IMG/VR virus record: IMGVR_UViG_3300044733_000912
Location: 1 to 37,099 of that record
Strand: one strand, 5' to 3'
Source: a virus
DNA length: 37,099 bases
The notes below the pieces were generated by a model. It did not search any database and was not told where the DNA came from. It saw only the letters and a program-made list of their open reading frames with translations. Shown in pieces: positions 3,101 through 28,632 of this stretch; the first letter of the stretch is position 1, and each line of letters opens with the position of its first letter. Made by a program: the position numbers and the translations under genes.

Positions 3101-5094
3101 ACGGTAATCAACTACTTAAAGGTAGGATCGCTAAAACAATTCCATTTGCAGATCGCTACAAAGACTTAAACATTGGCGAAGAGAAAAAAGAAAACGTCAT
3201 CTTCCATTACAACAAAGATGGCAGTATTGATGTAATCGAGATCTATGACAAGGCGCAACGCAACGCTATCCGCCGCACTTACGAGCAGTCTCAACCAATC
3301 ATTGACATGCTGAACCACGTTACTAGCACTGTTGGTCAGATGCATACTCGTTACAACATAGCGTTCGCGCCAGTTAACTTCTTCCGCGATGCTCTGACCA
3401 ACGCATACTCAATTGGTGTTGAGATGGGTCCAAAAGCTTCCGCGCAATACATCGGCGCTATCGCTACAAATGTAGCAAATGGTGGTTTGTTCCGCGCCGC
3501 TAAAGTTGCCGCGCTGTATGAAGCTGGTAAGTTTGACCAAATTAGAGCAATGGCAAAGAAGAGTGACTATGTACGTGACATGCTTGAGTTCATCGAGCAG
3601 GGCGGCAAAGTATCGTATCTTGCTGGTCTTTCTTCTAAGGGTCAGTTTAAAGAGTTACAGAAGTCGCTTGACCGCACAGGCATCCTAAAGACCAAGGATC
3701 AGATCGACAAGTTTGTTGACATTTACACCGACATGTTTGAATTGGCAAGCCGCACTGCGGCGTATCGTATTGCCAAATCTCAAGCACTGGCAGAAAATCT
3801 TTCCCCCGCCGATGCGCAAGTCAAAGCTGCTGGTTATGCTAAAGGTCTTGCTAACTTTGAACAAGTTGGTGAGTGGGGCCGTGCCGCTGGTGCGGCGTTC
3901 ATGTTCTTCCGTCCAGCCGCTACTGGTGCTGTTAGGGCTATTGAAACATTAGGCCCAATGCTACGCGACCCAAAAGATGCGTTGAAAGAACTGCCTGAGT
4001 ACATTCAGAAAGATAAAGTAGCTAGCGCTGAATTCTTGAAGAAGTACAACGACCAGAAGAAGGCCGCTACCGCAATGACCTTGGGCTTGCTTGGTATGGG
4101 TAGTGCAATCTATTTGATGTCTATGGCATTGTCTGACGATGATGATTTAGGCCGCAACCGCACTGCTACTGATGACGCAAACCGCTGGTCACGTTACGCT
4201 CGCTTCCATATTCCCGGCATGGATACACCCATCCAGATCCCTTGGGGCTTTGGACTTGGCGCATTTGCATCTGCTGGTGGACAAATCGCGGCGTTGGCTA
4301 CAGGCAACTCATCTGTTAAGACTGCGCTTAGCAACATTGTTGTGACAGGTTTGGATTCGTTCTTGCCGCTGCCGGTTTCGCGCATTAGTCCAATAGACAA
4401 CTTCCCAGCATGGGCGATGGACTCTGCTACACCTTCCGTTGCGCGTCCGTTCCTTGAGTGGGTGATGAACATTGACGGTCTAGGTCGTGAGATTTATAAC
4501 AACCGTCAGTCACGCTACGGAGATGCCTACACAGGTGGCGACAACATCCCTGAGTTGTATAAGTCTGCCGCACGTACTCTGGCTGAAATCACGGACGGTA
4601 AAGTGGACTGGAGTCCTAACACGATGTACTTCTTTGCCAATAACTATGGCGATGGACTGATGCGTTTGGCGCAGACTGGATACAACTACGGTTTGCTTGC
4701 GGCTGGTGAGAAGGCATTTAATCCTAAGACTGACACCGTGTTCTTTGATAGCTTTTTTGGCGCACCGTCAAACTTTGACGCACGGCAGTTCTCAGAGGTT
4801 GAGAAACAAATCTTGACTAAGCAACAAAAGCTCAACATGTTCAAGGATTCAAACCCAGAAGCGTACGCTCGATACGTTGAGAAGAATCCCATGGACGAGT
4901 ACATAGTTGAGCATTACAACAAAGTAATCAACCAAGACTTGAAGAAGTTGCGGGAAGAGGCAAACATCTACCGCCGTATGCCGGGCCTGACTCCCAAGGA
5001 ACGGACGGAAGCTGTTAAGAATGTTGTTAAGTTCCAAAACTTAGTTAAGCGTGGAATCATTGAAGACTTTGAGATGATGGGTGTTGAACCCTAA
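115..5094 (+). CDS. Giant polyvalent / internal-virion-type protein with metallopeptidase motif (5' end uncertain)
   Basis: A 1659-residue multidomain protein of the type phages carry in the virion and eject with DNA; the role is inferred from size and architecture. Residues 1-380 are charged coiled-coil and Pro/Thr-rich linker sequence. A zinc-peptidase-like segment carries HELVH at 481-485, just after the strand-like TILVTPEGA. The long C-terminal half contains RYNIAFAPVNFFRDALTN (from about 1079), which reminds me of the large polyvalent protein-associated domain LPD38. A hydrophobic stretch at about 1320-1342 (MTLGLLGMGSAIYLMSMAL) is followed by an acidic SDDDD. The first ATG has no ribosome site and the frame is open upstream to a TAG at 34, so the true N-terminus is doubtful. 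It ends in TAA, overlapping the TAG of the convergent gene. It runs in the same direction as the head genes at the right end, consistent with late expression. Confidence 0.85.
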   Translation: MQADYDKRDAEIKELESRGTTLNAGEKSKLTRKRKENAELKAKIDDALSKISPKGAEDVTGTVSEAAGTSTTLPPQSTVIVPPAPGSGEAKRDGVVSTGPDVTGAAEGKGTESVAVKTGPSEEVKKEMDEKVKQVADLYDEEREYAKLDDDGANLYDALQTGKLPAGMELGTARLDAVLERNELELPDLPDNFETLPPQAKVEAVNEALNDLKQQIDDKRAVLVPWEKLTDDQRQVYLDNVRNNTAQEHASARRALVRYRKQLRETQGKPKDLKADPSAGIYERNRQAYKSRDRLEYPTWEQLNDEQRALYNKTLSDKQKDIKNATAEDHDTAFKAVADKLVQEGYIPAPGKTYLDVREAQLKKSEAESQERAQREIKEKREGKKAKPTGEKKVPNALIDKIKEGDLGAVLNWLSTSIPNPNKTIAIKLQRLVASRIKSLGLKTKIKYVDSLPDGDIAQYNPESDTILVTPEGATATTLLHELVHAATIKILDRVSNNDIANLTPEQIDAANQLDDIMALTASDLAELFPNAYKNIFEFVSEAISNPEFQDALKKYPATGLEYTLTPDRSALSRFIENVIEILNLKNLFTKSGAFGKANLLSEAFTAFESIIEVPEGGIERAPLPAPKAAPTTQKAEGKVDVTTEEAIKRNELPETSGINAVRRLFTTRQGGMNLVTKFQNARYAIKSWEDGLTRAGKIIYSGSKLNNIYTQIALAASRAKDLYLTRVNTPASDMQSAIGAYAKASGLTTKEATERLHVYLMGLHEGERRDVKYMLNVPLKDDKILKIGNEILSPAGFRERIMDEVLSGTLNKTQIETARNALNNVVAKYKDPTGSSPNGSKSIERDNEEYNVIGGYTPNSIKNFIKSYEGDPNRKEVDKVIAAMRKLQDATKELNKEANYWSAPVQSIVDFYGWKNYVPFAGKEKYTNEADAMLDFNSNRLGREMQEGQNSFEGRETDSDNSIVQSLTDATRAAMRAGRRDVTLAIKNAVAKDKDGNQLLKGRIAKTIPFADRYKDLNIGEEKKENVIFHYNKDGSIDVIEIYDKAQRNAIRRTYEQSQPIIDMLNHVTSTVGQMHTRYNIAFAPVNFFRDALTNAYSIGVEMGPKASAQYIGAIATNVANGGLFRAAKVAALYEAGKFDQIRAMAKKSDYVRDMLEFIEQGGKVSYLAGLSSKGQFKELQKSLDRTGILKTKDQIDKFVDIYTDMFELASRTAAYRIAKSQALAENLSPADAQVKAAGYAKGLANFEQVGEWGRAAGAAFMFFRPAATGAVRAIETLGPMLRDPKDALKELPEYIQKDKVASAEFLKKYNDQKKAATAMTLGLLGMGSAIYLMSMALSDDDDLGRNRTATDDANRWSRYARFHIPGMDTPIQIPWGFGLGAFASAGGQIAALATGNSSVKTALSNIVVTGLDSFLPLPVSRISPIDNFPAWAMDSATPSVARPFLEWVMNIDGLGREIYNNRQSRYGDAYTGGDNIPELYKSAARTLAEITDGKVDWSPNTMYFFANNYGDGLMRLAQTGYNYGLLAAGEKAFNPKTDTVFFDSFFGAPSNFDARQFSEVEKQILTKQQKLNMFKDSNPEAYARYVEKNPMDEYIVEHYNKVINQDLKKLREEANIYRRMPGLTPKERTEAVKNVVKFQNLVKRGIIEDFEMMGVEP

Positions 5095-5315: not shown

Positions 5316-8157
5316 CTTTAATCAAGTGAGTCAGATCAGTTTCAAAAGCATAGGCTTGTACGTTTGTACTGCCAACTGCGTCAGACCATCCAGCCGCCAT
5401 CTGTTTGCGCAACTTGCCTTTCAGTACACCGGCATCTGTTAGCTTAGTCTCAAACTCCTTGATACCCAGTTTGATCTCATGCAGATACGCTTTGAGCGCA
5501 GAAGTAGATACAAAGATTGTGCTTTCTTCAACTTCAGCCCTGATGTACAGAGGGCCACGAGGTGCTGTGGATACCTTGCCGTTGTTCACGACCAGCATGT
5601 TCTGAATGTTCTTATTGATGAAGTCACCTAAAACATCTTCGCGGGTATTGGAGTCAGCTTTGCGCTTACCATTGATGATGTCGTTGAACGCTCCGCCAAC
5701 TACGTTCATGATACGAACCATGTCAAACTCAAACCAGCCCAGTTCACGCAGGATGCGCTCAGCGGTGTAGACGTTGGCAATCAAACTGGCAATGTAGCGA
5801 TACTCACCACTCTTTGAATACTTGTCCGCTACATTCATGTACTCAATGTGGATCCTACGAGTCAACTCTTTCTTGCCAACTTTCAACAGTTCTTGCACAT
5901 AGGGTATACCGGCATGGCCGTAGTGGTAGTGATAGGCATCAAACATGTCTTTGCCGCGCTCAAGTGTCAGTTCATACCCCTGAACATTTGGCCTAGTCAT
6001 GTATGGCTCAAGTACACGCATTTCTTCGGCGCTGGTGTTTGCCTTGTAGGTTGAAATAATATCGATCAGTGAGTTGTTTGTTGTAATAATCGCAATCAAT
6101 CGGGTGATGAACTCTGACTCACGTTCTTGGTTGGATGACGCCTGAAGTCTAATCTTTGGGCGACCAGCGGAAGTTTTGTAGACCACATCAGATGCTACTT
6201 TGCCGTCCAAGTTAGTCTGCTCATCAAGACCAAACGTAATATTCTTAGAGGTAATCATGCGCTGTGTTAGCGCATTGGGTGTTGCATCGTTAACAGTCAA
6301 GCTTTCAGGTGATCCCCAGATACTCATTGCAGAATACAAAGCGCCTGTCTTACCAACGCCAGACTCACCATGCAAGGAAAGCACAATACCGTTGACGTTG
6401 GAGAACTCCATCAAGGGTGTAGCAAATCCGCACAGTAGCGTGAACGCATGAAACTCATAGCCCGGGTCGTTGAGCATACGAGCCGCCGTAAGCCAGCCTT
6501 CAAACGTACCGCTTTTCTTGACATAGCGCACAATGTTCTTAGACATGGGAGACGGAGGGCAGTGCCTGATCTCGTCTTTAAATACTTCGCTTGTACCGAT
6601 AACAAATGATTCGTGATCTTCTGTCCAGCCTTGTTGGATTCGCATGATGTCTGCCTTTTGTGTATTGATTAAATAACTTGTCCACTTCATTAGATAGCTC
6701 GCAAACTTGGGAGCGAGCGCGGGTTCAAATGCAACGCCGTTAGATAGCAGGGTTGCCTTGAGTTTGTCTAATGCGCCGATGTCTTTCAGCGGTAACATAA
6801 ATTCACGAGACGCATCTCGTGGTAAGTGCAAGCGAATGACTAAGCACTCGCCATCGTGGGGGCTGAACAGTCGCTGAATGGGATACACATCATTTGGTGT
6901 CAGCATCTCGGGTGGGTCTTGGACTTTCTTGCCATCCTTGTTTATTCGTGGCGCTGGTTGAAAGTACACACCGCCGTTGATTGGGCGAAAGAATGGCTTA
7001 AGAAACTCAGGAAAGACTAAGAGGTTCTTGGGATCCTTTTTGGCCCCAGTTGGCTCCGCTTCATCTTCGGCTTCGCCTCCTTCATCGTCAGGAGTTCCGT
7101 CAGAGGACTCGGTATATTCAACTGCGAGTTTGATAGATCGGGCAAGTGCAATAGGCCCTGACTTTCCGAGTTTTCCTTTGTGTGGGCATCCAACGCATCC
7201 AGCCCTGTTCTCACGTTCAAAGGCGTCGCAACTGTGTGCCCAAGCCGCTTCACTTCTTGACTGCTCTGCTTTTCGTTCAGTTTCGTCCCGCGAATAGTCG
7301 GGGTGGTCTTCTGACATGAGATGTATGGCAGTGTCGCCATCAACACACCTTGAGGCGACAGATAGTCCAGCGTACCACAACGGCTCTGGACAACTAGCCG
7401 CGTTTTCGAGAATGTATTTAATTTGTCCACAGCCTACTCCTTCTAAGCTATCCTCCGCGAGCTTTTGGAAGACGTATTCATAATTGCCGTTCATCTTGTC
7501 GAACAGCGCTTGAGTCTCATCATCAAGACCCTTTTCAACTTGGCTCAAGTCAAATGCTTTTTCAACTTTACCAAGCAGGCTTTCCCAGTCTTGAAAGTCT
7601 GTAGGCTCACCGTCCTGTATGACTTCAACCGGTAACGGAGCGCGTTTTAGATTGCGACTGCCGGGGACTCTAAGAATCCTTGCGGCATCTGCCGTAACTA
7701 CCTCATCAATCATGAGGCCGTTGTCTAAACAATACTGTTTAAACTTTTCAGCGTACGGTTTCCAAATGTCCGTAGGTACATCAGCAGTAAAAGGCCAGTA
7801 AGCATGGATGCCGTTACCGGAGTTTACGATGATTGGTTGCGGCAGTTCAGTATCGGACAGAAACTTGTGCAATGCTATCAGTCCGTCTTCCCACGCCGCA
7901 TACGGCTTATCAGGGCCGCAGTCTAGGTCAACAAAGAACGAGCGCATAAAAATACACGCACTAGCCCTACGTTGATACCCCTCAAATGTCCCAAGCGCAA
8001 AAAATGTGTTGAAGTCACCAGCATCAAAGTCCTTCATGAAGTCAATCGCTTCACTAAGGTACTCAGAGAATTTGGGGCGCACTGAGTCACCCTTGATTCC
8101 GACTACACAAATGTTGCCCTGCGTTGGCAATACCTTATCAAAAAATTGTTCGTTCAT
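5293..8157 (-). CDS. Primase-helicase: PrimPol domain fused to DUF927-type helicase
   Basis: A 954-residue replication protein. The N-terminal third is an archaeo-eukaryotic-type primase-polymerase: FFVDLDCG with D77 and D79 as metal ligands, SGNGIHAYW with H118, and ADAARILRVPGSRNLKR following. A middle segment has a Cys-rich patch (CDAFERENRAGCVGCPHKG) of the sort found between primase and helicase in phage DUF927 proteins. The C-terminal part is a helicase-type ATPase with Walker A GESGVGKT at 597-604 and Walker B FGLDE (D645, E646), followed by RPKIRLQASSNQERES. It probably primes and unwinds DNA for the polymerase at 13291-15159. A hairpin at 8175-8195 separates it from the gene upstream, and no clear Shine-Dalgarno precedes the ATG, so translation may be restrained. 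The family calls are from motifs and I consider them strong. Confidence 0.93.
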   Translation of the reverse strand: MNEQFFDKVLPTQGNICVVGIKGDSVRPKFSEYLSEAIDFMKDFDAGDFNTFFALGTFEGYQRRASACIFMRSFFVDLDCGPDKPYAAWEDGLIALHKFLSDTELPQPIIVNSGNGIHAYWPFTADVPTDIWKPYAEKFKQYCLDNGLMIDEVVTADAARILRVPGSRNLKRAPLPVEVIQDGEPTDFQDWESLLGKVEKAFDLSQVEKGLDDETQALFDKMNGNYEYVFQKLAEDSLEGVGCGQIKYILENAASCPEPLWYAGLSVASRCVDGDTAIHLMSEDHPDYSRDETERKAEQSRSEAAWAHSCDAFERENRAGCVGCPHKGKLGKSGPIALARSIKLAVEYTESSDGTPDDEGGEAEDEAEPTGAKKDPKNLLVFPEFLKPFFRPINGGVYFQPAPRINKDGKKVQDPPEMLTPNDVYPIQRLFSPHDGECLVIRLHLPRDASREFMLPLKDIGALDKLKATLLSNGVAFEPALAPKFASYLMKWTSYLINTQKADIMRIQQGWTEDHESFVIGTSEVFKDEIRHCPPSPMSKNIVRYVKKSGTFEGWLTAARMLNDPGYEFHAFTLLCGFATPLMEFSNVNGIVLSLHGESGVGKTGALYSAMSIWGSPESLTVNDATPNALTQRMITSKNITFGLDEQTNLDGKVASDVVYKTSAGRPKIRLQASSNQERESEFITRLIAIITTNNSLIDIISTYKANTSAEEMRVLEPYMTRPNVQGYELTLERGKDMFDAYHYHYGHAGIPYVQELLKVGKKELTRRIHIEYMNVADKYSKSGEYRYIASLIANVYTAERILRELGWFEFDMVRIMNVVGGAFNDIINGKRKADSNTREDVLGDFINKNIQNMLVVNNGKVSTAPRGPLYIRAEVEESTIFVSTSALKAYLHEIKLGIKEFETKLTDAGVLKGKLRKQMAAGWSDAVGSTNVQAYAFETDLTHLIKDEQETTE

Positions 8158-8174
8158 AATCGCAGAGACAATAA

Positions 8175-8195
8175 AGGCGAGGACCGGCCTCGCCT
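8175..8195 (-). terminator. Hairpin between HTH gene and primase-helicase, possible attenuating terminator
   Basis: A perfect 8-bp inverted repeat, AGGCGAGG and CCTCGCCT, flanks a 5-base loop. Read leftward, the stem is followed by TTATTG rather than a full U run. It lies 18 bases before the start of the primase-helicase gene, so it could be a weak terminator or a translation-limiting leader structure. Confidence 0.45.
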
Positions 8196-8212
8196 GTAAA
8201 CAATATGGGCTG

Positions 8213-8548
8213 TTAACCCGACTTTTTAGAAACTTCCGTAACTGCGCGACCGAGGATGTTCTCAGTGTATGTACGGGCTTCTTTGAGATTCTTGGCTGGC
8301 AAGAGTCCCGCTTCGGTATCCTCCTTTAGAAGTTGCAGAAACAACCTGATTTTTTCACGACGACCACTACGTACATACCCGCCCCGAAACCACGCATGGA
8401 TACCCATACGTGATACACCGAGAATTGCTGATGCGTATGCGGCAGGCAAGTTGGCTTCAATACACGCCTTCGCCAGCGTGATGCCTACATTGTCCCCTTC
8501 AGTTGTATCAACAATGCTTAGTAGTTCGGGGCTGTATGTGCGGGCCAT
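8213..8548 (-). CDS. Putative helix-turn-helix DNA-binding protein, 111 residues
   Basis: Residues 25-60 contain AAYASAILGVSRMGIHAWFRGG, which reads as a helix-turn-helix (SAILGVSRMGIHAWF as turn and recognition helix). The rest is a charged helical C-terminal part. No enzyme motif is visible, so a role as transcription or replication regulator is inferred. Its ATG overlaps the stop of the preceding gene in a TAATG arrangement, which implies coupled translation. It is one of two HTH-bearing candidates in this window (the other is the N-terminal part of the DUF3310 protein) for a protein that binds the TTTCA-N8-TGAAA palindromes at 24.6-28.7 kb, but nothing in the sequence ties it to them. Confidence 0.75.
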   Translation of the reverse strand: MARTYSPELLSIVDTTEGDNVGITLAKACIEANLPAAYASAILGVSRMGIHAWFRGGYVRSGRREKIRLFLQLLKEDTEAGLLPAKNLKEARTYTENILGRAVTEVSKKSG

Positions 8549-9411
8549 TATTTCTTAGACCACTTTTTAACGATGTCGCTAACATCTTCTGGAGCTTCAG
8601 TAGATGCTTTAGGAGCAGACGCGCGTTTCACTGGCTCAGGAACAGGCTCAGCAAAAGCGGCTGGTTGAGCAGGGGCTTCAACTTCATCAACACCATCAGT
8701 TTTAAACACAGACAACTTGACTGCGTTCTCTGCGGCTGGAGTCTTGCCTTGCTGAACGATTACATCGCGTATTTCATTAGGTACAGCAGACGTTGGAGAA
8801 AACAACAAGCGTGGCACTGGGAAGTTAATGTCAAACTGCATCTTAGTTACGACACGACCAGCAGACACATTGTTGTTAGCAAGCATCTGAATGTACGGAC
8901 GGAAGGGCCACTTGCCGCCTTCTTCTTTGCCGAACGCTGAAGTAGCTGGCAACACCAACTGATACACATCTCCCTCGGGATCGTTAGGCAATACAACAGC
9001 GGCTCTCCATGAGAGTCGGCAAGCAGTGCCTTGACCGCCTTGACCTGAACCCTTGACTGAGTTGGGGCACTCAGCGCAAGTCGGCGCACAAGGAGATTTA
9101 ACCTCGGGGTCAGGGGTCTTCGAGTCATTTGACCAGCAAGCAGGGGCTAACTTCACACCCTTTTTGTAGGTAGAGTTATAGAAGGTACGCGATGCGTCAT
9201 GGGCCATCTTAACGATGATGACATTCATAGAGTTGTCTGTATTGACGCTCTGCTCTTTACCACCAACGATCTTGCGGAATACGCGACCCTCGATAGAAAT
9301 GCGCTTGTTGCCTTTTGTGGCATTACCGGCTACGGCAAGTGTGTCCTCATCGAGGCCCAATTCCATTAAACCACCGGCGTTTTGAAAAATGTTTGCGAGT
9401 TCGTTACTCAT
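8548..9411 (-). CDS. Candidate ssDNA-binding replication protein with Cys cluster, 287 residues
   Basis: The middle of the protein carries a Cys-rich cluster, CAPTCAECPN followed later by ACRLSW, that could hold a zinc ion. Around it are beta-rich stretches such as RVVTKMQFDINFPVPRLLF. The C-terminal 50 residues are an Ala/Pro/Glu-rich linker ending DVSDIVKKWSKK, a flexible tail plus conserved tip, as many single-strand-binding proteins have. With its place between helicase, polymerase and primase genes this makes a phage SSB the best guess, but I see no decisive motif; a recombination mediator is the main alternative. The start is supported by TTAGGAAACATC before ATG. Confidence 0.8.
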   Translation of the reverse strand: MSNELANIFQNAGGLMELGLDEDTLAVAGNATKGNKRISIEGRVFRKIVGGKEQSVNTDNSMNVIIVKMAHDASRTFYNSTYKKGVKLAPACWSNDSKTPDPEVKSPCAPTCAECPNSVKGSGQGGQGTACRLSWRAAVVLPNDPEGDVYQLVLPATSAFGKEEGGKWPFRPYIQMLANNNVSAGRVVTKMQFDINFPVPRLLFSPTSAVPNEIRDVIVQQGKTPAAENAVKLSVFKTDGVDEVEAPAQPAAFAEPVPEPVKRASAPKASTEAPEDVSDIVKKWSKK

Positions 9412-17878: not shown

Positions 17879-18026
17879 AGGGGTTTCCTTTTGCTAATCG
17901 CATGAGTAATCTCGCTTTGCGCCATGTACGGCGCACATCGGTTTGTGAGGCGTTCTTAAATTTAAACTTCGGGTCTGTACACATGCGTGTGGGTAATGCT
18001 CTTGAGAGATATTTAAGTTCTTTCAT
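17862..18026 (-). CDS. Small basic phage protein, 54 residues
   Basis: A short frame: MKELKYLSRALPTRMCTDPK, then FKFKNASQTDVRRTWRKARL, ending LAKGNPYESLT. It is strongly basic. The TDVRRTWRKARL helix resembles the TDVRxTFxRxR pattern of small phage proteins next to replication genes. Its ATG overlaps the TGA of the VRR-NUC gene (ATGA) and its end overlaps the next gene's start, matching the packing of this region. Function unknown; nucleic-acid binding is plausible from charge. Confidence 0.7.
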   Translation of the reverse strand: MKELKYLSRALPTRMCTDPKFKFKNASQTDVRRTWRKARLLMRLAKGNPYESLT

Positions 18027-18319
18027 TTTGCGTTGTCCAATATGAGTTGTTTGATAATCCCGACATTGTGTTCATCAACGATGAACGACAAGCCGCCCCG
18101 CATCTCAATCTCATCTAAGTGAGACTGCTGTAATTTCGTTGGCTTACCGCCGTTCGCTTTGCACTCTATGCCAATGAACCATCCGTTGTAGCAACATAGA
18201 ATGTCAGGCACTCCTGAATTACCAAATCCACTCGTTACGGGCATGGTGTAGTAAGCCCCGATAGAAGCCAGTTCCATGAGGACTTTCTTCTTTACTTTGC
18301 GTTCAGGTGTATCTGCCAT
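18023..18319 (-). CDS. VRR-NUC domain nuclease
   Basis: A 98-residue single-domain protein of the VRR-NUC type, a PD-(D/E)XK-like family that includes phage nucleases and the FAN1 C-terminal domain. It shows ERKVKKKVLMELASIGAYY, then GNSGVPDILCCYNGWFIGIECKA with D39, E52 and K54 as catalytic residues, then QQSHLDEIEMRGG. It probably cuts branched or nicked DNA in replication or packaging. GGAG lies about 8 bases before the ATG and the start overlaps the upstream gene by 28 bp. Confidence 0.92.
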   Translation of the reverse strand: MADTPERKVKKKVLMELASIGAYYTMPVTSGFGNSGVPDILCCYNGWFIGIECKANGGKPTKLQQSHLDEIEMRGGLSFIVDEHNVGIIKQLILDNAK

Positions 18320-18708
18320 GTAGACTTCTCCTTGTTGTAGCCAATCTCACCAAGCTGCGAATAGTGCATGACTACGATGTACAAATCTTTGCACACCATC
18401 CACCCCACATCGTCGAGCTTTGGGTTGTGGTAATTGATAAACGAATCCGTGACCGAGACTTGATATAGTTCTTTCTTAGGCGGCGGAAATGCGTGAATCA
18501 TTGCAAGTGAAGCCTTCATGAAGTCAGGTAATGTTTCTTCGGTGAAGTACCGCACTCTGTCAGGTTGCACAACAACTGCATAACCGTCGTCTTCTCTGTA
18601 TACAGGAACGCGCCACATATCAGGGGTCTTGTATGGCATGGAAGGCCACTTCTTAGCGTCGTGTAGTGAGCGCATATATTGCGTAACGTATTCAAGTTCG
18701 CTGTACAT
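18292..18708 (-). CDS. Phage protein of unknown function, 138 residues
   Basis: Not recognised. It has an N-terminal helical segment (MYSELEYVTQYMRSLHDAKKWPSMPYKTPD), a beta-rich middle (RVPVYREDDGYAVVVQPDRVRYFTEE), and a C-terminal half with DVGWMVCKDLYIVVMHYSQLGEIGYN. I chose ATG 18708 because it overlaps the TAA of the gene before it (TAATG) and the extension to 18738 would run back into that gene. It lies between the MoxR/VWA cassette and the nuclease, and may be the cassette's last member. Confidence 0.75.
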   Translation of the reverse strand: MYSELEYVTQYMRSLHDAKKWPSMPYKTPDMWRVPVYREDDGYAVVVQPDRVRYFTEETLPDFMKASLAMIHAFPPPKKELYQVSVTDSFINYHNPKLDDVGWMVCKDLYIVVMHYSQLGEIGYNKEKSTWQIHLNAK

Positions 18709-19658
18709 TACTTGGGCTCTTTGGGAATGACCACCCACACGATGTTGTTGCGATAGCCCGCGCTGATGTCGAGTTCAGGTAAGAATCTGTCAATCTTACC
18801 TATGAACAACTCGTTTCTGTTGGAGTAGATTCTTTCGGTAGACTTACCTTGCATGTAGGTAGCGATCATCATCGCATCAACTGCGACTTCGGGTATATCT
18901 TTAAGAGTTGAATAGCGTTTCAGGCTACCCTGAATGAGTACCTTCTCGCGGTTGTTAGTGTTATCAACCACGCCCTCACCGACAAGATACTTGACTGGGA
19001 GAGTACCATCGTTTTCATAGTAGTTCTCGTAGTCAATGCCTATGAGTTTGAAGCCCTTGCAGAATCTTTTATGGTCGTCTGCTGACTCATTGTATGTTTT
19101 CATTTTGACTAAATATTTACTGTACGAATCTTTGAGATCGCTAGCGTACTGCTGTATTGAAATAGTGTCAACACCTAATTGGCTTTCTACCAACATTTTT
19201 ACAATATCAACATTCACTTCTATTTTAGGTGCGCCATATCTAGCCGAATCTTTGACTGGATGAATCGCAGTAATGACTTCTTCTGCGTAAGCCTTAGTCA
19301 TACTCTCATCGCTAGGAAACTCGTTGTTCTTCTTCAGCGTTCTAATGAGTGTTGCAATCTTATTAGAGTCACGCTCACTTCTGCTGGAGTTTGAACTCGA
19401 CTTCTCTTTTTTAACAAGATACTGATTCTCGTAGATGTAGACTGTCTCACTTCTGTCGCGTGAGTTAGTATTTGTAGACAACTCACCGCCATCCAATCCA
19501 TTGGGCGTTACTACGCGCAACGCTCCGCTGTTCTTAACTCTGTCGACCTTCACATTGAACGCCGTGCAGAACTCATACACAAACTTCTTGAGGTTCGGCT
19601 TGTTGGTAAACAGTTCAGTCAGTTTGTCTTGGTCGACTTTGTCTGTTGCTATGTTCAT
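18708..19658 (-). CDS. Unknown protein at end of MoxR/VWA cassette, 316 residues
   Basis: Not recognised. The N-terminal part is lysine-rich and helical (KVDQDKLTELFTNKPNLKKFVYEFCTAFNV). A central Ser/Arg/Asn-rich stretch (KKEKSSSNSSRSERDSNK) is probably a flexible linker. The second half is folded-looking (KFKL-type strands near FKLIGIDYENYYENDG and LPVKYLVGEGVVDN). ATG 19658 has AAGGAGAG a few bases upstream and leaves 10 bases after the previous stop; the frame to 19775 would overlap that gene by 107 bp. Position suggests a partner of the AAA+/VWA proteins, as inference. Confidence 0.78.
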   Translation of the reverse strand: MNIATDKVDQDKLTELFTNKPNLKKFVYEFCTAFNVKVDRVKNSGALRVVTPNGLDGGELSTNTNSRDRSETVYIYENQYLVKKEKSSSNSSRSERDSNKIATLIRTLKKNNEFPSDESMTKAYAEEVITAIHPVKDSARYGAPKIEVNVDIVKMLVESQLGVDTISIQQYASDLKDSYSKYLVKMKTYNESADDHKRFCKGFKLIGIDYENYYENDGTLPVKYLVGEGVVDNTNNREKVLIQGSLKRYSTLKDIPEVAVDAMMIATYMQGKSTERIYSNRNELFIGKIDRFLPELDISAGYRNNIVWVVIPKEPK

Positions 19659-19668
19659 AACTCTCTCC

Positions 19669-20610
19669 TTACAGTTGTTTAAATTCTTCACCAGTAGGTG
19701 AAACGATTTTGTGATCCCATGAAGATGCACATAACTTACCCTTGGGTAACTCCACCCAATCAAACGCTTCGTCAATCTCTCCTAAAATAGTCTTACGGAA
19801 ATGTCTAACGATGACACTCTCAACACTTTCTTGCCATTCGCGCGGCATCCTTGGTTCGCCTGAGCCGCCATCACCTAGTTGGTATCTAAAGTTGCTACGA
19901 ATCCAATGGTTATGCAATAGATACTGTATGAACGCCGCATCTACATAATGTTTCTTATCAACTGTCTCTTTCAATGTCTTGGCGTTGAAATTTGCACCAT
20001 TGAACTTGTCAGTCTGATCGTGTAAATCTTTGATGACTTCGATTGCCGCCTTGTCGTTCATTGCCTTGATGTACATCGGATAAACATCTAAAAACTCTTT
20101 GTACTGCTTCATGATTGCGTTTGATCTTTTGCGATTCAGGGTAGGCTGAACAACTGTGAACTGCGTCAGGGGCTTCTTAGTTCCAATATCAAACCGCAAT
20201 CCTGTGAAGATCGGATAGTCTTCAAAACCTCCAACGCTCATGATCGCGCCGCCCTTAGCCTTCACCTGATGTATGTACACACCAAGCAATTCAGACATGA
20301 GAGTGTTCTCACCTTGATGCAGTCCATTGATTGTGGTGAACTCAAACGAATTGTCAGGGCGCACAATGCCTAATGGTTTCTTGCCTACATACCATCCCTC
20401 TTTCAAATCGCCTTTCTCAAGTTTGTCAATCATTTCTCGGTGCGAATACCAAATGCTGAATGAACCATCCTCCAACGCTCTGAAATGCCGCGATGAATAT
20501 GTCCTGTCACCTAAGTGGTACGCATTGCCTGAGCCACGATAAGGCTTGCTGTTCTTGACTGTGTTAGCCAAGGACTCATAACTAATTCTGTTGATGTCAT
20601 AAAAACCCAT
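19669..20610 (-). CDS. Unknown protein in MoxR/VWA cassette, 313 residues
   Basis: Not recognised. It begins YDINRISYESLANTVKNSKPYRGSGNAYHLGDRTYSSRHF cut by polar turns, has repeated aromatic-rich segments (SFSIWYSHREM, EGWYVGKKPLG), and a helical middle (MKQYKEFLDVYPMYIKAMNDKAA). The C-terminal part has SNFRYQLGDGGSGEPRMPREWQ. AAGGAG precedes the ATG and 2 bases separate it from the VWA gene's stop, so it is tightly operonic with it. A substrate, adaptor or DNA-binding partner of the ATPase pair is possible. Confidence 0.8.
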   Translation of the reverse strand: MGFYDINRISYESLANTVKNSKPYRGSGNAYHLGDRTYSSRHFRALEDGSFSIWYSHREMIDKLEKGDLKEGWYVGKKPLGIVRPDNSFEFTTINGLHQGENTLMSELLGVYIHQVKAKGGAIMSVGGFEDYPIFTGLRFDIGTKKPLTQFTVVQPTLNRKRSNAIMKQYKEFLDVYPMYIKAMNDKAAIEVIKDLHDQTDKFNGANFNAKTLKETVDKKHYVDAAFIQYLLHNHWIRSNFRYQLGDGGSGEPRMPREWQESVESVIVRHFRKTILGEIDEAFDWVELPKGKLCASSWDHKIVSPTGEEFKQL

Positions 20611-20612
20611 GA

Positions 20613-21809
20613 TTACTCCTTCACCATAACTTTCTTACCTGTTGGCGGTTGCCAACTCTCGTTCTCTGTCACCATCCACAATGTCGGTGCTGAAATCTGC
20701 CACGCAACATCGTTCTCAACATAACCGTCGGTGAACACCAATACACATTCAGCGTTGACACGCTTCTTGTTGATGTATTCAGCCACGCATGAAACCTTAG
20801 TTCCTCCGCCGCCCAAGGGCTTGAGCATTGCTCCGATGTTCTGATAATCATCTTTGAACAGTTGCTCGCCATGAACCTTAGTGTCCCACCACAGAACGCG
20901 CACAGCTTCGGGCGATACGACCTCACAGATAGAGACCAGTTCCGAGGCGAACTCATTGAGTTCCTTCTCGCCAATCGAACCCGATGTATCGATAGCAACG
21001 ACAATCTCTCCGATAGTCTCGTTCTCCACAGTTGGGATGTACAAATCATTGGGCAACACTCTGCGGTTGAACTTGCGCCATGTGTACTCGTCCTTGCCCT
21101 TCGTCGCTGAAGAAACAAAATCTCGTAACACCTCACGCCAGTCCACCTTCGGGTTGAGAATGTCTGTGATTGCTCGTGGCAGATCAATACCTAAGCGACC
21201 CGCTAACAACGCGCCTTCACGCAACGCTCTGTCGATACGCGCCTCGACTTCCTTGGCTTTCTCAGGAGTCATCGGATTACCATCGCCCTCGGTGTCGTGC
21301 TCATCGAACGAATACTCACCACCTCCACCTTGCGATTCACCATCCCCTGAATCACCACTTCCTCCGCCACCACACTCCTCTTCCTCCAATAACTTGTACA
21401 CCTCACGCATGTTCATGTTGTGGTACTTGGGGTCATAGCATCCGCCTTCGGGTAGCTTCACAAGGTTCTTGTCCTTGATGTTCATGATGATGTCGTTGAC
21501 AACATAGTCTGCCGCTTTGTTGGCTCGCTGACGATCTTCTCTGAACATGTCAATGCCGTGGAGCATGTGACGCAATACGATGTGCAGATTCTCATGAAGC
21601 ACTAAGCCTGCTACTTCTTGGTCTGTCTTGCACACGGCTTTGAGGAACGCTCTGCCGTAACGCTTGTTGATACCATCGGTGTATGCAGTTATCGCATCAT
21701 CGATCACGGCTGTCGTACCCATCATCATCACACCTGAATACAAAGCTGTCTCAGGATGTTTCATCATGGCAATGTGCGCCTTCTTGACGCGTTCTTCTTC
21801 AGTCAACAT
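20613..21809 (-). CDS. DUF2201-like metallopeptidase-type protein with C-terminal VWA domain
   Basis: 398 residues in two parts. The N-terminal part has LVLHENLHIVLRHML, an HExxH-like zinc motif with H72, E73 and H76, typical of DUF2201. A Gly/Ser/Asp-rich linker follows (GGGGSGDSGDGESQGGGG). The C-terminal VWA-like domain has IDTSGSIG, a MIDAS motif with D274, S276 and S278, and VLVFTDGYVEND as the second metal-side strand. VWA proteins of this kind act with MoxR-type AAA+ ATPases, and one is encoded directly upstream. GGAG lies 6 bases before the ATG, inside the coding region of a 29-residue gene whose TAA overlaps this ATG. Cellular target unknown. Confidence 0.9.
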   Translation of the reverse strand: MLTEEERVKKAHIAMMKHPETALYSGVMMMGTTAVIDDAITAYTDGINKRYGRAFLKAVCKTDQEVAGLVLHENLHIVLRHMLHGIDMFREDRQRANKAADYVVNDIIMNIKDKNLVKLPEGGCYDPKYHNMNMREVYKLLEEEECGGGGSGDSGDGESQGGGGEYSFDEHDTEGDGNPMTPEKAKEVEARIDRALREGALLAGRLGIDLPRAITDILNPKVDWREVLRDFVSSATKGKDEYTWRKFNRRVLPNDLYIPTVENETIGEIVVAIDTSGSIGEKELNEFASELVSICEVVSPEAVRVLWWDTKVHGEQLFKDDYQNIGAMLKPLGGGGTKVSCVAEYINKKRVNAECVLVFTDGYVENDVAWQISAPTLWMVTENESWQPPTGKKVMVKE

Positions 21810-21898
21810 TATGGTCTCCAGTAAAAAAGGTCTAACAATAAAACAATGAGTGACATCAGCAACGCCACTCGCTCAAACTTTTCCCATTGGGTCAGCAT
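21809..21898 (-). CDS. Single-pass membrane microprotein between MoxR and VWA genes, 29 residues
   Basis: A tiny frame, MLTQWEKFERVALLMSLIVL then LLDLFYWRP. Residues 11-26 are an uninterrupted hydrophobic helix flanked by charged and aromatic ends, so it should be a single-span membrane peptide. GAGG lies 6 bases before the ATG, and its stop overlaps the ATG of the VWA gene (TAATG). It also carries that gene's ribosome site. It could tether the complex to the membrane, act as a small lysis-type or regulatory peptide, or merely be a coupling leader. Confidence 0.6.
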   Translation of the reverse strand: MLTQWEKFERVALLMSLIVLLLDLFYWRP

Positions 21899-21906
21899 TG
21901 ATTACC

Positions 21907-22977
21907 TCACATCAACTTGTGGTTGTTTGATGCCCAAGTGTTGATCGCTTGGTTGTATCGCGCAATGCGAGGCTTACCGCGCATAATCATCGTGAAGAAC
22001 ACAGACTGAACTTCAGAGGACGGAATACGCTCAACGAACTGCATGTACTTGTTCAGCTCATCCTGAGTCTCTACTACGTCGACCGCCTCGAACATCATCA
22101 TGACTTGCGCTGACACATCGTCAGGAACTTTAATGGTTGATGGTGCTTTCAACACATCAGCGAATGAGATCAACTTACCTTCGAGTGCAATGAACGCTGA
22201 CATACTCTTAGCCGCCGCTTCACCGATAGTGCCTGCCAACGCCGCCATCATTGCGTGTTCACCGATGATGTCCTTAGCTTCCACAATGGGAGATGCTTTC
22301 GCCAATGAACGAGGCGACACGAATGAACGTGCGGGAGATGATGGTTTAAATATATATGGGTTGTCGCTCTCATCACCGTCCAGATAGCTACGCATGGCCT
22401 TGGGAGTCATCGCCACCCATGCACGAATCGGTCTAGCAACCTTGTGCTTAGTCGCCCACACATTCCACAACTCTGCATTGGGCTTGCTCATGTGCAAGAT
22501 ACACACACGATTACCAACGTGAGCCAACATGCTGTCGCCTACACCATCGCTTGCATTGTTACTTGTACCGAACACGATGCTACCCTCGGGCAGGGGTTCA
22601 TCGCCAACACTACGCTCGAGCATGAGTCGGGTGAAGATAATCTGCAATAGCTTGGGAGACTTCATGAACTCGTCAAGCATGATGACTTTCTTCTTGCCGT
22701 TGCCTAGCTTGAAGAGAGACGACACATAATACTCAAGAGTCTTGCTTGCATGGTTGGGGATCGATGCCGCAACGTCCATCATGTCTTTAACAGGACAGTC
22801 GACATAGATGAAGTCATACTCATCAGTACCGAGATCAGCCTCAAGCATCTTCAGGATTGATGACTTGCCACAACCAGGCTCAGAGACAATGATGGGAGTA
22901 ATTGAATTACCGATTGTCTTGATGACGTTTGCGCAGTCATCGATGGTAATGTTCAGGTTGAAATTGATTTTAGACAT
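21907..22977 (-). CDS. MoxR-like AAA+ ATPase
   Basis: A 356-residue AAA+ protein. Walker A is EPGCGKSS at 33-40 and Walker B is VIMLDEF with D102 and E103. A sensor-1-like segment follows (GSIVFGTSNNASDGVGDSML), where the Asn-rich GTSNN is typical of MoxR-type ATPases, then NRVCILHMSKPN. The C-terminal part is a helical lid region. Such ATPases work with VWA proteins to remodel partners or insert metal cofactors; the VWA/DUF2201 gene is next in the operon. AAGGAAACACC before the ATG supports the start. Alternative: a phage-specific chaperone for virion assembly. Confidence 0.9.
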   Translation of the reverse strand: MSKINFNLNITIDDCANVIKTIGNSITPIIVSEPGCGKSSILKMLEADLGTDEYDFIYVDCPVKDMMDVAASIPNHASKTLEYYVSSLFKLGNGKKKVIMLDEFMKSPKLLQIIFTRLMLERSVGDEPLPEGSIVFGTSNNASDGVGDSMLAHVGNRVCILHMSKPNAELWNVWATKHKVARPIRAWVAMTPKAMRSYLDGDESDNPYIFKPSSPARSFVSPRSLAKASPIVEAKDIIGEHAMMAALAGTIGEAAAKSMSAFIALEGKLISFADVLKAPSTIKVPDDVSAQVMMMFEAVDVVETQDELNKYMQFVERIPSSEVQSVFFTMIMRGKPRIARYNQAINTWASNNHKLM

Positions 22978-23017
22978 GGTGTTTCCTTCGGTTAATGTTT
23001 CAGGGTTGGGTGAATGA

Positions 23018-23203
23018 TTACTTGTTAATTTTCAGTTGCTTGATGGTGTATGTTTTCTCTACTTCATCTACTTCAACATACGCCTCCTTCATGCCTATCG
23101 CAACCAATGTGCATGACAAGAACACAACACGACGTTGCGCCTTGAAGTACATGAATGTCATGACTGCAAACGCAATCAACAATACGATCTCTAGGTCGGT
23201 CAT
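23018..23203 (-). CDS. Small membrane protein, 61 residues
   Basis: Residues 4-21 (LEIVLLIAFAVMTFMYFK) form a membrane span, followed by QRR and a second moderately hydrophobic part (VVFLSCTLVAIGM), then an acidic tail (VEVDEVEKTYTIKQLKINK). AAGGAG lies 7 bases before ATG, and the ATG overlaps the TGA of the upstream gene. It lies between the DUF3150-like and MoxR genes, so it may bring that complex to the membrane. Family not recognised. Confidence 0.75.
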   Translation of the reverse strand: MTDLEIVLLIAFAVMTFMYFKAQRRVVFLSCTLVAIGMKEAYVEVDEVEKTYTIKQLKINK

Positions 23204-24108
23204 ACAAAACTCCTTATCGGTTTAAATTTAGACAGCATGTCATCGACATTCTCTTTGACTACGCTTCGTGTATAAGAACTCTCACGCAAATCCTCTGTGC
23301 TGATACCGTCAAGCGCAAAGCTAAGGTCTACTACTGCTTGTGATAATGCCTTGTTGTTTGTCAGGTTGAAGTTCTCGATGGTCTTGCAAATCTCCTTGGC
23401 TTGGCTCACAGTACTGTCGTATATCTTCTTGCGCCTTACCTTGCCATCCTCGTCGGGCGTTGCCTCGGTACATGCGTTGGCTAACCGTGAAGCAATCTCT
23501 ACAAGACGCTCGGATGCATCGTCCATCACAGCGTTGATGATCTCCTGTGTTTGACGCTCGTAGTGGTTCTTCAAATCTTCTGCCAATGCTTCGCTCACAG
23601 ACGAACGAAAGTCAGCCTGCGGTACTTTCTGTACATGCAGACGCATGCGGAACTTGGTGCGAACTTCTTCAGGTTCAGGGTACTCTGAACGATTAAACAT
23701 ATCGCCTTGTTTGAACGCCGCATCGCTGACAATCTGCGGGTATGCAGTAATAAACTTCTCGAGCAGAGCTTTGAAGTCGGCCTCATGTTGGGCGTACTCT
23801 TTCTTGAACTTCTCAAGGTTGATCGTTGGAAGCAGACGCATTGAGCCCGCCCAGTCGTATGTCGACCTCTGAAGCCAGTTATACACGGTCTGCCGATAGT
23901 TCAGTAGCGCCTTGTGATCGGGTGAATCGGAGAGTAAGTTCTTGGTGAACTTGCCTGCATCAGCAGAGGCTTTCTTAGATGTTGTCACCTCGTTAGAGAT
24001 GGCGCGATCCTGTTTCGTTGCAGTCCACACGTTGACATCCACGCAGACAACGAGTGCTGACGTTGCAAGTGAGATGATGTGGTTGGGTTGTTGAAGTTCG
24101 AAGTTCAT
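23200..24108 (-). CDS. DUF3150-like protein of the MoxR/VWA cassette, 302 residues
   Basis: Near the N-terminus is LVVCVDVNVWTATKQDR, then VTTSKKASADAGKFTK, and a long helical region (FKKEYAQHEADFKALLEKFI ... YPQIV) followed by VRTKFRMRLHVQKVP. This VDVxxWxxxK start, helical core and RxFxFxxxV-type strand resemble DUF3150, which is known from neighbourhoods with MoxR and VWA genes. The match is from memory of the pattern and the neighbourhood, so moderate. GGAGG lies 8 bases before the ATG. It is the first gene of the cassette in transcription order. Confidence 0.75.
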   Translation of the reverse strand: MNFELQQPNHIISLATSALVVCVDVNVWTATKQDRAISNEVTTSKKASADAGKFTKNLLSDSPDHKALLNYRQTVYNWLQRSTYDWAGSMRLLPTINLEKFKKEYAQHEADFKALLEKFITAYPQIVSDAAFKQGDMFNRSEYPEPEEVRTKFRMRLHVQKVPQADFRSSVSEALAEDLKNHYERQTQEIINAVMDDASERLVEIASRLANACTEATPDEDGKVRRKKIYDSTVSQAKEICKTIENFNLTNNKALSQAVVDLSFALDGISTEDLRESSYTRSVVKENVDDMLSKFKPIRSFV

Positions 24109-24623: not shown

Positions 24624-24641
24624 TTTCACCGTACCGTGAAA
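24624..24641. promoter_or_regulatory. Palindrome A: operator-like TTTCAC-N6-GTGAAA
   Basis: TTTCACCGTACCGTGAAA is a perfect 6+6 inverted repeat with a 6-base spacer. It is one of five copies of a TTTCA-N8-TGAAA family between 24.6 and 28.75 kb. This copy lies between promoter A and the ATG at 24591, so in RNA it would form a hairpin in the leader. A dimeric DNA-binding protein site is the simplest reading. Confidence 0.7.
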
Positions 24642-26327: not shown

Positions 26328-26345
26328 TTTCACCCACCCGTGAAA
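26328..26345. promoter_or_regulatory. Palindrome B: operator-like TTTCAC-N6-GTGAAA
   Basis: TTTCACCCACCCGTGAAA has the same perfect 6+6 arms as palindrome A, with a different spacer, and the same placement between an extended -10 promoter and the first gene of a leftward unit. The arms are kept while the spacer changes, which is what binding by a symmetric protein or an RNA hairpin would preserve. Confidence 0.7.
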
Positions 26346-27207: not shown

Positions 27208-27801
27208 TTACTTCAAAGCATTGTTAAACAGATCGATTGCTTGGCGCAATTTAACCTCATTGGGTGCAGTTGTGTCGCCTCGTGCATTGGCAGTTTTGGC
27301 ACGGGCTTTGACTGTGGTAAACAACTCTTTGATGAAATCATCAAATTGTTTTGTGGGGGCTTTGACCTTGGGCTTGCCCTCATTCTCAACTCTACGCACG
27401 GCAACCTTGAGATCGGCAAGACGATTGGAACAATACTTGTTAAAGTTATCACGCACGGCCTTGATGACACCATGCTTGATTGGATCGGCCTCTTTGAGTT
27501 GCCCAAATGCTTGTTGAGAGTATGACAAGCAGTAATCCAGACTATTGGTAAAACCTCCCTTGGGGTTTGGTTTCCAGTCATTGTCGAATACTGTGGCAGG
27601 GTTTAACTCTTGCCATCTCAAAGCCCATCCGAGGCGCAGTTGAGTCTTGACCTCATCTGGTTGTGATTCGCAGAATGTAGGACACTGCTCGTATACAAAA
27701 CGGGCAATGACTGCCATTGTTTCACTAGACCTTGCCGATTGGTATGCGGCATCTTTGAACGACGAGACGATTGTCTCTTGGGGTTTTGTTGCTTTGCTCA
27801 T
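27208..27801 (-). CDS. Early-type phage protein, copy 1 of a duplicated pair, 197 residues
   Basis: A paralog of the next gene (28024-28632). Shared blocks include KDAxYQSA, DEVKTQLRxGWALRWQELN, SYSQQAFGQLKEADP, VENEGKPKVKAPTK and VKARAKTAxARGD, so the whole length is homologous. The C-terminal half is Lys/Arg-rich and helical, consistent with nucleic-acid binding. No catalytic motif or known family is apparent. It has its own promoter (27855-27884), boundary repeat and hairpin, so gene and control region were duplicated together. It lies beside the candidate origin, so a role in replication initiation or early host take-over is possible. Confidence 0.85.
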   Translation of the reverse strand: MSKATKPQETIVSSFKDAAYQSARSSETMAVIARFVYEQCPTFCESQPDEVKTQLRLGWALRWQELNPATVFDNDWKPNPKGGFTNSLDYCLSYSQQAFGQLKEADPIKHGVIKAVRDNFNKYCSNRLADLKVAVRRVENEGKPKVKAPTKQFDDFIKELFTTVKARAKTANARGDTTAPNEVKLRQAIDLFNNALK

Positions 27802-28023: not shown

Positions 28024-28632
28024 TTACTTGCTTAGAGTATTGTGGAAGGCATCGATGGCCATGCGCAATTTAACTTCATCAGGTGCTGAATCGTCACCCC
28101 TTGCTTTTGCTGTCTTGGCTCTGGCCTTGACTGACTTGAATGTCTCGTCAATGTATTGCGTGAAACCCTTAGTAGGCGCTTTCACTTTAGGCTTGCCCTC
28201 ATTCTCTACTTTGCGTACCGCTGACTTTAGGTCAGCCATGCGATTAAAACAGTATTTGTTGAAGGCATCGCGTACACCCTTGATAATGCCATGCTTGACT
28301 GGGTCAGCCTCTTTCAACTGACCAAAGGCCTGCTGACTGTAACTGAAGCAAACATCAACAGTCATTACATAAGAGCCATTCTCTACGGGAATCCAACTGT
28401 CGTTATAACTTTTCGCTGGGTTCAACTCTTGCCAACGTAATGCCCAACCTGCGCGAAGTTGGGTTTTAACTTCATCGCTGACTTCATTGGTGAAGTTGGG
28501 ACATTGCGCATATACATAGCGCGCTACGCTGTCTTTACGTTCATCGCTGATCGCTGACTGATAACCTGCGTCCTTCATAGAAGTGACGTTGACAGAACCC
28601 AATGAAGGGGCCACTTGTTTTGCTTTAGACAT
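28024..28632 (-). CDS. Early-type phage protein, copy 2 of a duplicated pair, 202 residues
   Basis: A paralog of the 197-residue protein at 27208-27801, with the same order of conserved blocks and a similar basic C-terminal half. The N-terminal 20 residues and the region after WQELNPA differ most, so the copies have diverged in those parts and may have distinct partners. AGGAGATATT precedes the ATG. It has its own promoter E, boundary repeat E and terminator. Function unknown; not a match to any phage family I can name. Confidence 0.85.
   Translation of the reverse strand: MSKAKQVAPSLGSVNVTSMKDAGYQSAISDERKDSVARYVYAQCPNFTNEVSDEVKTQLRAGWALRWQELNPAKSYNDSWIPVENGSYVMTVDVCFSYSQQAFGQLKEADPVKHGIIKGVRDAFNKYCFNRMADLKSAVRKVENEGKPKVKAPTKGFTQYIDETFKSVKARAKTAKARGDDSAPDEVKLRMAIDAFHNTLSK

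Follow-up and report, generated by a model that had tools for sequence, protein, structure and literature searches.

A phage gene block combining a DUF3150-like protein, a MoxR-type ATPase and a metallopeptidase-VWA protein, and its relatives on plasmids

What is the purpose of a run of closely packed phage genes that combines a MoxR-type AAA+ ATPase and a VWA-domain protein with a DUF3150-like protein, two small membrane proteins and two proteins of about 315 residues that resemble nothing familiar? We addressed this question for the virus record IMGVR_UViG_3300044733_000912, whose 37,099 bases (the window) represent part of a tailed phage. Our analysis suggests that these genes are the phage version of a mobile-element machine with a core of three proteins, A, C and E (Table 1), which acts in replication, recombination or host takeover and not in virion building. 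We hold this reading tentatively, at somewhat less than an even chance. It takes in a connection to plasmids that the original prediction for this DNA had missed and a replication and recombination setting that it had not stressed.

Gene order and linkage of the block

The seven co-directional genes called in the original prediction were recovered exactly as placed. All seven open reading frames (ORFs), A to G, are open on the minus strand and span 24108, the start of A, to 18708, the final base of G. They are closely packed, with gaps from A to G of -4, 40, 8, -1, 2 and 10 bases; B overlaps A by 4 bases, and the stop of D lies over the start of E in a TAATG overlap. The starts of the seven ORFs are preceded by purine-rich stretches that resemble ribosome-binding sites. 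The cassette extends beyond G, since the ATG of H begins at the end of G, and both H and I maintain the linkage.

Table 1 Features of the gene block and its upstream region in the window
Feature	Description	Position	Strand	Basis or context
Operator-like site	Palindromic, TTTCA-N8-TGAAA, 18 bases	24624..24641		Precedes the first ORF of the A-containing operon by ~32 bases
Two small ORFs	93 and 81 residues	24591-24310 and 24355-24110	minus	Between the operator-like site and A
A	DUF3150-like, 302 residues, slow-evolving core component	23200..24108	minus	Weak PF11348 match, plasmid homologues, linkage
B	Predicted membrane microprotein, 61 residues, one hydrophobic segment	23018..23203	minus	ORF, conservation, hydropathy, codon pattern
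C	MoxR-like AAA+ ATPase, 356 residues	21907..22977	minus	phrog_1297 and invariant motor residues
D	Predicted membrane microprotein, 29 residues, one hydrophobic segment, C-terminal LLDLFYWRP	21809..21898	minus	
E	DUF2201_N metallopeptidase and DUF2201 VWA domains, 398 residues	20613..21809	minus	Pfam above cut-offs
F	Rapidly evolving partner, 313 residues	19669..20610	minus	Model, identity rates, linkage
G	Rapidly evolving partner, 316 residues	18708..19658	minus	Model, identity rates
H	Linked, fast-changing; ~138 residues from the ATG overlapping the G stop, or 148 if begun at a GTG at 18738	18292..18708	minus	
I	VRR-NUC/Holliday-junction-resolvase-like nuclease (presumed label), 98 residues, conserved end of the block	18023..18319	minus	phrog_93 match, linkage

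The genes are not scattered in relatives, and their order recurs in dozens of viral contigs. The 48 viral loci fetched with E show their detected genes in the order A-(B)-C-(D)-E-F-G-H-I, with two exceptions: locus L037 has B after C, and in five loci (L039-L042 and L048) no F was detected between E and G. Since baiting with E biases such counts, relatives were also fetched independently with A and with F. All 50 distinct A-fetched loci with at least 4 kb of downstream sequence contain C and E. Where at least 8.5 kb is available downstream of A (34 loci), C, E and I are each present in 34, H in 33, G in 32 and F in 30. Among distinct F-fetched loci with enough flank, the corresponding counts are 63/63 for E, 47/47 for C, 37/37 for A, 58/58 for both G and I, and 51/58 for H. 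These tallies omit loci with short flanks or identical anchors (80 were fetched with A, of which 74 were distinct, and likewise 80 and 74 for F), and the profiles used for gene finding were trained on the E-fetched loci. The viral relatives are the best 80 per pattern scan, for A the best 80 of at least 500, with distant families under-sampled. The counts from the two baits indicate that, in this phage lineage, the cassette forms a fixed unit of more than seven genes.

Such linkage might also be no more than an ordinary shared neighbourhood, in which separate early functions stay together through a shared operon and a common ancestor. Among 32 long records from cassette loci, picked by hand, 27 carry a terminase (77-100% identity) and a portal (57-100%) of the window lineage, and co-inheritance would thus explain part of the linkage. 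In the remaining five, which may be fragments, terminase and portal were unmatched. E is present in 30 of the 32, and the other two contigs end within A (L111) or C (L112). However, even in relatives with only about 43-55% identity in A and 23-35% in F and G, the genes keep their order despite the gain and loss of small genes between them, and A, C and E recur on plasmids in another order, C-A-E. We therefore consider a mere neighbourhood of separate functions improbable.

The only genome-contig match to A was a 7.6-kb contig with A-C-D-E (L057), which is binned in a metagenome-assembled genome of an uncultured actinobacterium. This assignment may reflect a binning error or else point, weakly, to the host.

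Core enzymes, fast-changing partners and membrane microproteins

The identities proposed in the original prediction for the DUF3150-like protein, the MoxR ATPase and the DUF2201/VWA protein are supported by profile matches, A with 18.4 bits against PF11348 (DUF3150) and hence below the 24.9-bit cut-off. C matches phrog_1297 ("ATPase") with an expectation value (E-value) of 6.8e-50, and the profile of its family matches midasin at 8e-10. In 22 aligned sequences of C, the Walker A residues G35, G37 and K38, the Walker B residues D102 and E103, as well as N140, R157 and R223 are invariant; for the latter three, we propose sensor and arginine-finger roles. E, a member of phrog_1314, matches both DUF2201_N (PF13203; 85.6 bits, cut-off 23.2) and the DUF2201 VWA domain (PF09967; 70.9 bits, cut-off 26.4). 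Its HExxH residues H72, E73 and H76 and the residues D274, S276, S278, T337 and D361 of the metal-ion-dependent adhesion site (MIDAS) are invariant across 23 aligned sequences, which include those of Roseobacter phage CRP-7 and the N4-like phage LIT1. Because the Walker, HExxH and MIDAS residues are invariant, C and E both look like active enzymes.

In PHROGs and in many phage records, for example gp35 of NC_013692, the metallopeptidase-VWA family phrog_1314 is labelled "HNH endonuclease". The Pfam matches of E contain no HNH domain, and we treat the label as a mislabel, which has probably been propagated. The DUF3150-like protein of the Tunturiibacter phage Tunturi_3 (L054 gp96) is labelled "HNH endonuclease" as well.

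The components of the block differ markedly in their rate of change. In 26 hand-picked loci, among them one locus almost identical to the window and one contig represented by two pieces, the median pairwise identity was 65% for the DNA polymerase, 57% for A, 62% for C, 61% for E and 58% for I (230 pairs each) vs 32% for F (183 pairs), 30% for G (205 pairs) and 36% for H (152 pairs). A, C and E thus behave as a core, and F, G and H as fast-changing partners. I matches the endonuclease family phrog_93 (E-value 2.6e-16), with a Pfam Hjc match below the cut-off; the label VRR-NUC is one that we presume to apply.

This pattern bears on the main rival of the reading given above, namely counter-defence, in which the motor-peptidase would dismantle a host defence complex and F, G and H would serve as fast-evolving target readers. 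F, G and H do change at a far higher rate than A, C, E and the DNA polymerase, and related cores are found on phages and conjugative plasmids, both of which face the same defences. Fast divergence by itself is no proof of conflict, however, and the presence of F in 30 and of G in 32 of the 34 loci with room for them makes both look more like core parts than like swappable anti-defence cargo. Among the proteins of the window, only C matched the defence libraries, and did so weakly: its best match was QatA, at 9.6e-5 in PADLOC (residues 179-353) and 0.0016 in NCBIfam. With weak matches to C alone in PADLOC and NCBIfam, we rejected a known defence system as an identification. Taken together, we regard counter-defence as unlikely, albeit as a serious competitor.

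F and G, the two partners of about 315 residues that the original prediction had left without a family, match nothing credible in Pfam, PHROGs, family-profile, PADLOC or NCBIfam searches, and they travel with the MoxR and VWA genes. Their AlphaFold2 models have predicted local distance difference test (pLDDT) scores of 91.7 (F) and 89.7 (G), and Foldseek searches of the models against the PDB gave nothing at an E-value up to 0.001. In a second structural search, the best match of G was a Mediator Med17C chain (Z 6.2, 87 residues, root-mean-square deviation (rmsd) 3.5) and that of F was vaccinia A49 (Z 3.7, 95 residues, rmsd 4.5), both within the range that the search tool rates as common. The absence of a PDB match for these predicted models does not establish a new fold. 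The model of F matched three uncharacterised phage proteins in BFVD at an E-value up to 0.001. Another candidate relative of F, CRP-7 gp16, whose gene adjoins the VWA gene of CRP-7, showed no likeness to it.

The two small proteins B and D are real genes but accessory ones. In relatives, D has 28-37 residues with a hydrophobic stretch and a D-x-x-x-W motif at the C-terminus, while B carries a short shared N-terminal signature ahead of its hydrophobic stretch, and B-like proteins are found between A and C, between C and E, or between E and F. Differences at codon positions 1/2/3 amount to 44/33/150 for the 61-residue form of B, 7/0/10 for its 59-residue form and 347/147/470 for D. Both therefore vary as coding sequence, which identifies them as real genes. 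At least one small membrane ORF was found in 49 of 77 loci and none in 28 at the hydropathy threshold used; these counts depend on that cut-off and include near-identical contigs. Their location in the membrane is predicted from hydropathy alone. Of the proposal of two membrane microproteins, conservation and coding-like variation thus stand, but neither is obligatory: of the 34 A-fetched loci with sufficient downstream sequence, 18 contain B and 20 contain D.

Relatives on plasmids and the replication setting

The core of the block is not confined to phages. Using tblastn, homologues of A were found on 40 plasmid records, of which 38 belong to Burkholderiales and 2 to Rhodovastum. All 12 of the stretches examined among these 40 records of the close form contain C and E as well, in the order C-A-E; in one of them, C lies ~3.6 kb upstream. 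The corresponding E proteins carry the HExxH motif in 10/12 and the MIDAS motif in 12/12 cases. Comparison of the phage and close plasmid family profiles gave 1.5e-35 for A, 1.6e-25 for C and 8.5e-46 for E, which is a firm tie. In 8 of the 12 close stretches (L061-L063, L212-L214, L216 and L218), a gene for a protein of 444-521 residues is located slightly upstream of the MoxR gene. The one such protein scanned had no Pfam match, and profiles show no likeness to F, G or A; a plasmid-specific fourth partner is possible.

A second, classical form of DUF3150 is much more widespread, with 1134 plasmid records matched, 982 of which are typed as conjugative. Six of these 1134 records were examined (pCAR1, chosen from a paper, and five others from a spread list of 40). 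In all six, AAA, DUF3150 and VWA genes stand near each other, the same three kinds of protein as in the phage core, and all six contain genes for RecT/Bet and/or a lambda/YqaJ-type exonuclease in the stretch examined. The VWA proteins have an HExxH motif at residues 57-65 in 5/6 and a MIDAS motif in 6/6 cases. In contrast to the phage block, most classical DUF3150 and VWA proteins exceed A and E in length and resemble them only weakly in sequence, the DUF3150 gene precedes the VWA gene, F, G and H were not seen, and genes of the ssb-bet-exo type are nearby. In pCAR1, RecT and a lambda-type exonuclease are encoded ~11-16 kb from the set. The MoxR-like ORF101 and the VWA protein ORF103 of this plasmid have been described within ORF100-103, which is conserved in R478, Rts1, SXT and R391 (PMC2642839), and the annotated record of pCAR1 shows that the gene between ORF101 and ORF103 encodes a full DUF3150 protein. 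The s089 operon of SXT has been described as a RecA-independent recombination system under the control of SetCD (PMC4344509). IncC elements have the order AAA - hypothetical - ssb - bet - exo - DUF3150 - VWA, which suggests by analogy that s067 and s068 of SXT may be the DUF3150 and VWA genes; the SXT gene numbers looked for do not occur in two papers on this element.

The position of the cassette in the window points in the same direction as the classical form. A long block on the minus strand encodes a primase-helicase, an SNF2-type helicase, a PD-(D/E)XK exonuclease, the DNA polymerase and a DUF3310 protein, and the cassette is the upstream portion of this replication and recombination block, on the same strand and in the same region. 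The right end of the window carries, on the plus strand, the genes for the terminase, the portal and a GroES-like protein.

This setting is relevant to the suggestion, made in the original prediction, that the cassette helps in building the virion. A MoxR-VWA pair with a peptidase could act as a chaperone that folds, assembles or processes structural proteins, and virion assembly has been proposed for the MoxR and metallopeptidase-vWA pairs of group 2.2 jumbo phages, with the tail of Acidianus two-tailed virus cited as a precedent (PMC7824862). The block lies, however, in the region of the replication genes, away from terminase and portal on the opposite strand, and the A-C-E core also occurs on plasmids, which make no virions. 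Furthermore, three named phages, 023Pt_psg01, DSL-LC04 and Pelagibacter phage HTVC023P, have a homologous terminase (49-53%) and portal (39-41%), yet there is no E in their records, although the same search recovered E in 30 of the 32 long records; the ~50 kb scanned of each gave no significant match to A or C. Of the four named phages nearest to the window by terminase, the comparison covered these three, HTVC027P being the fourth. The lack of E in these three phages implies that this type of phage does not need it. Virion building is thus disfavoured, and we regard it as quite improbable. The replication and nuclease setting, the recombination genes that accompany the classical form and the named phages without E lead us to favour a role in DNA metabolism or takeover instead.

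Several observations weigh against the reading of the block as a mobile-element machine. The assignment of A to DUF3150 is weak, as PF11348 was matched at an E-value up to 1 by 13 of 19 members of the A family, at best with 1.1e-4. Profile comparison of the phage A family with six classical DUF3150 members gave only 3.5e-4 (probability 37%), and comparison with a single classical sequence was unsuccessful; for the close plasmid A family against the same six, the values were 1.2e-4 and 55%. Phage C matched the classical plasmid ATPases weakly (6.7e-5, probability 64%), and phage E vs the classical VWA proteins was not significant (0.078, probability 0.7%). As the latter profiles do not align, the shared HExxH-VWA layout could be convergent, and it is plausible but unproven that the phage and classical sets derive from a common ancestor. 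The usual domain model of MoxR proteins is AAA_5, which was not among the Pfam matches of C at an E-value up to 1, and no Pfam AAA model matched C above its cut-off. In the phage collection, the classical DUF3150 matched a single record, labelled Salmonella. E-like VWA proteins occur on 93 plasmid records and A-like proteins on 40. Among the 12 stretches examined of the close plasmid form, 6 contain genes of a type IV secretion system and only 1 encodes an exonuclease, so that it is the classical form that carries the link to recombination. In Tunturi_3, an A-like gene is present but neither C nor E was detected. Finally, with the same terminase in 27 of the 32 long records, the linkage within this one phage family is partly a matter of shared ancestry.

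If the block is nevertheless a mobile-element machine, C would form a MoxR-type AAA+ ring that powers E, the metallopeptidase-VWA adaptor, and A would complete the core as its third subunit. Substrates that C pulls or twists may be bound at the MIDAS site of E, and the HExxH site of E might cut them. F, G and H would be lineage-specific, fast-evolving parts, most likely adaptors for substrates or host targets, and B and D, where present, may anchor the machine to the inner membrane or modulate it there. A further-reaching version, which we regard as doubtful, is that a DUF3150-defined class of MoxR-VWA proteins constitutes an ATP-driven, membrane-attached peptidase that serves phages and conjugative plasmids alike. 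It would strip, remodel or cut host proteins on the DNA of the element or at the membrane where the element enters or replicates, and swappable adaptors such as F and G would choose the target.

Known systems and neighbouring features

In cellular MoxR-VWA machines such as NorQ/NorD, CbbQ/CbbO, RavA/ViaA and midasin, an AAA+ ring and a MIDAS adaptor remodel a client. The same mechanics can be expected for C and E, although E differs in having a metallopeptidase domain. Gp25 of phage N4 is presumably a VWA protein. The AAA+ ATPase gp24 and, by one of three methods, gp25 belong to the core set of N4-like phages (PMC7650795). Phage MoxR and VWA pairs, including some with a fused metallopeptidase domain, are likewise already known from jumbo phages (PMC7824862), and viral pairs have been referred to as "CobST" (PMC8651126, PMC11288001). 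Accordingly, the proposal of an undescribed system needs to be divided: the MoxR-VWA pair as such is not new in phages, but the A-C-E-F-G block was not found in the open-access literature searched, nor were the microproteins, a connection of phages and plasmids through DUF3150, or the term "DUF3150" itself. New here are the A-C-E core common to phages and plasmids, the company of recombination genes kept by the classical form, and the named phages without E.

In searches of phage records with tblastn, C matched 288 and E 670. The N4-like pair is similar in that the profiles of C and E match gp33 and gp35 of LIT1 (Schitoviridae) at 4e-18 and 1.1e-33, respectively, and LIT1 retains both HExxH and MIDAS; it differs in that the 19-kb LIT1 region contains no significant A, F, G, H or I partner. 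Gp31 of LIT1, considered as a DUF3150-like partner, does not resemble A and belongs to the AAA proteins. At 7825-8655 of the LIT1 locus (L056), two genes upstream of the N4-type ATPase, an AAA-domain protein is encoded (Pfam AAA, 4.6e-9); LIT1 therefore has two ATPase genes near its VWA gene. A search of the literature on CRISPRi-ART and N4 found nothing. The group 2.2 jumbo phages share an ATPase and a VWA protein fused to an N-terminal metallopeptidase domain; in contrast, virion assembly is proposed there, and a DUF3150 or F/G-like partner is not mentioned in the passage that describes the pair (PMC7824862). The MoxR-vWA ternary conflict systems also combine MoxR and VWA proteins with a defining third component, which is VMAP, iSTAND, FtsH or a beta-propeller (PMC7159879); the present set differs in having a DUF3150-like protein as its third component and in residing on phages and plasmids. 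A, F and G did not match the VMAP, iSTAND, FtsH or propeller components in Pfam and PADLOC, where a model for VMAP may be missing.

The name "CobST" implies an auxiliary metabolic role, in which C and E would act together with the CobN of the host in making cobalamin, and such a role has been proposed for viral MoxR/VWA pairs annotated as cobS and cobT (PMC8651126, PMC11288001). No CobS or CobT Pfam family matched C or E at an E-value up to 1, however, and the layout of E is that of a DUF2201 metallopeptidase-VWA protein. Moreover, no cobalamin link was found for A, F, G, H or I, and no chelatase-like gene (CobN) was recognised among the proteins scanned in the window, which may be a fragment. 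We consider this role very improbable. One pair of the kind often named as "CobST" vitamin genes or even "HNH endonuclease" here stands at the centre of a fixed multi-protein set, which includes two partners without a convincing known fold and two conserved membrane microproteins.

If functions are shared between the phage and plasmid forms, work on pCAR1 in Pseudomonas putida or on N4 in E. coli would explain a core module of plasmids and phages alike, and would perhaps cover genes of "unknown function" in the core set of SXT (PMC2791158). A mobile-genome machine, if real, would provide a function common to a large uncultivated phage family and to conserved core genes, so far unexplained, in IncC, IncH and SXT-type elements.

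Upstream of the block, the two small ORFs of 93 and 81 residues are, judging from their spacing, probably part of the same transcription unit as A. The palindrome TTTCA-N8-TGAAA in front of them recurs at 26328, 27087, 27886 and 28726, with one more copy at 1759, which lies inside a gene for a protein of 1659 residues. These six sites in the window compare with 0.12 expected from 100 dinucleotide shuffles. In relatives, 53 sites were counted in 234 kb upstream of A vs 13 in 599 kb downstream, hence about ten times denser upstream, and a site within 3 kb upstream of A is present in only 23 of 78 loci. The five palindromes outside recognised genes have the look of operator sites of a phage regulon to which the cassette operon would belong. 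At 27208-27801 and 28024-28632, two adjacent paralogous genes on the minus strand encode proteins of 197 and 202 residues, whose family was not recognised; each is preceded by TTTCA-N8-TGAAA, and the repeated intergenic DNA is spaced by ~800-840 bases. At the left end of the window, on the plus strand (115-5094), the 1659-residue protein has no match in PHROGs and contains an LPD38 polyvalent-protein domain; it is perhaps an injected or virion protein.

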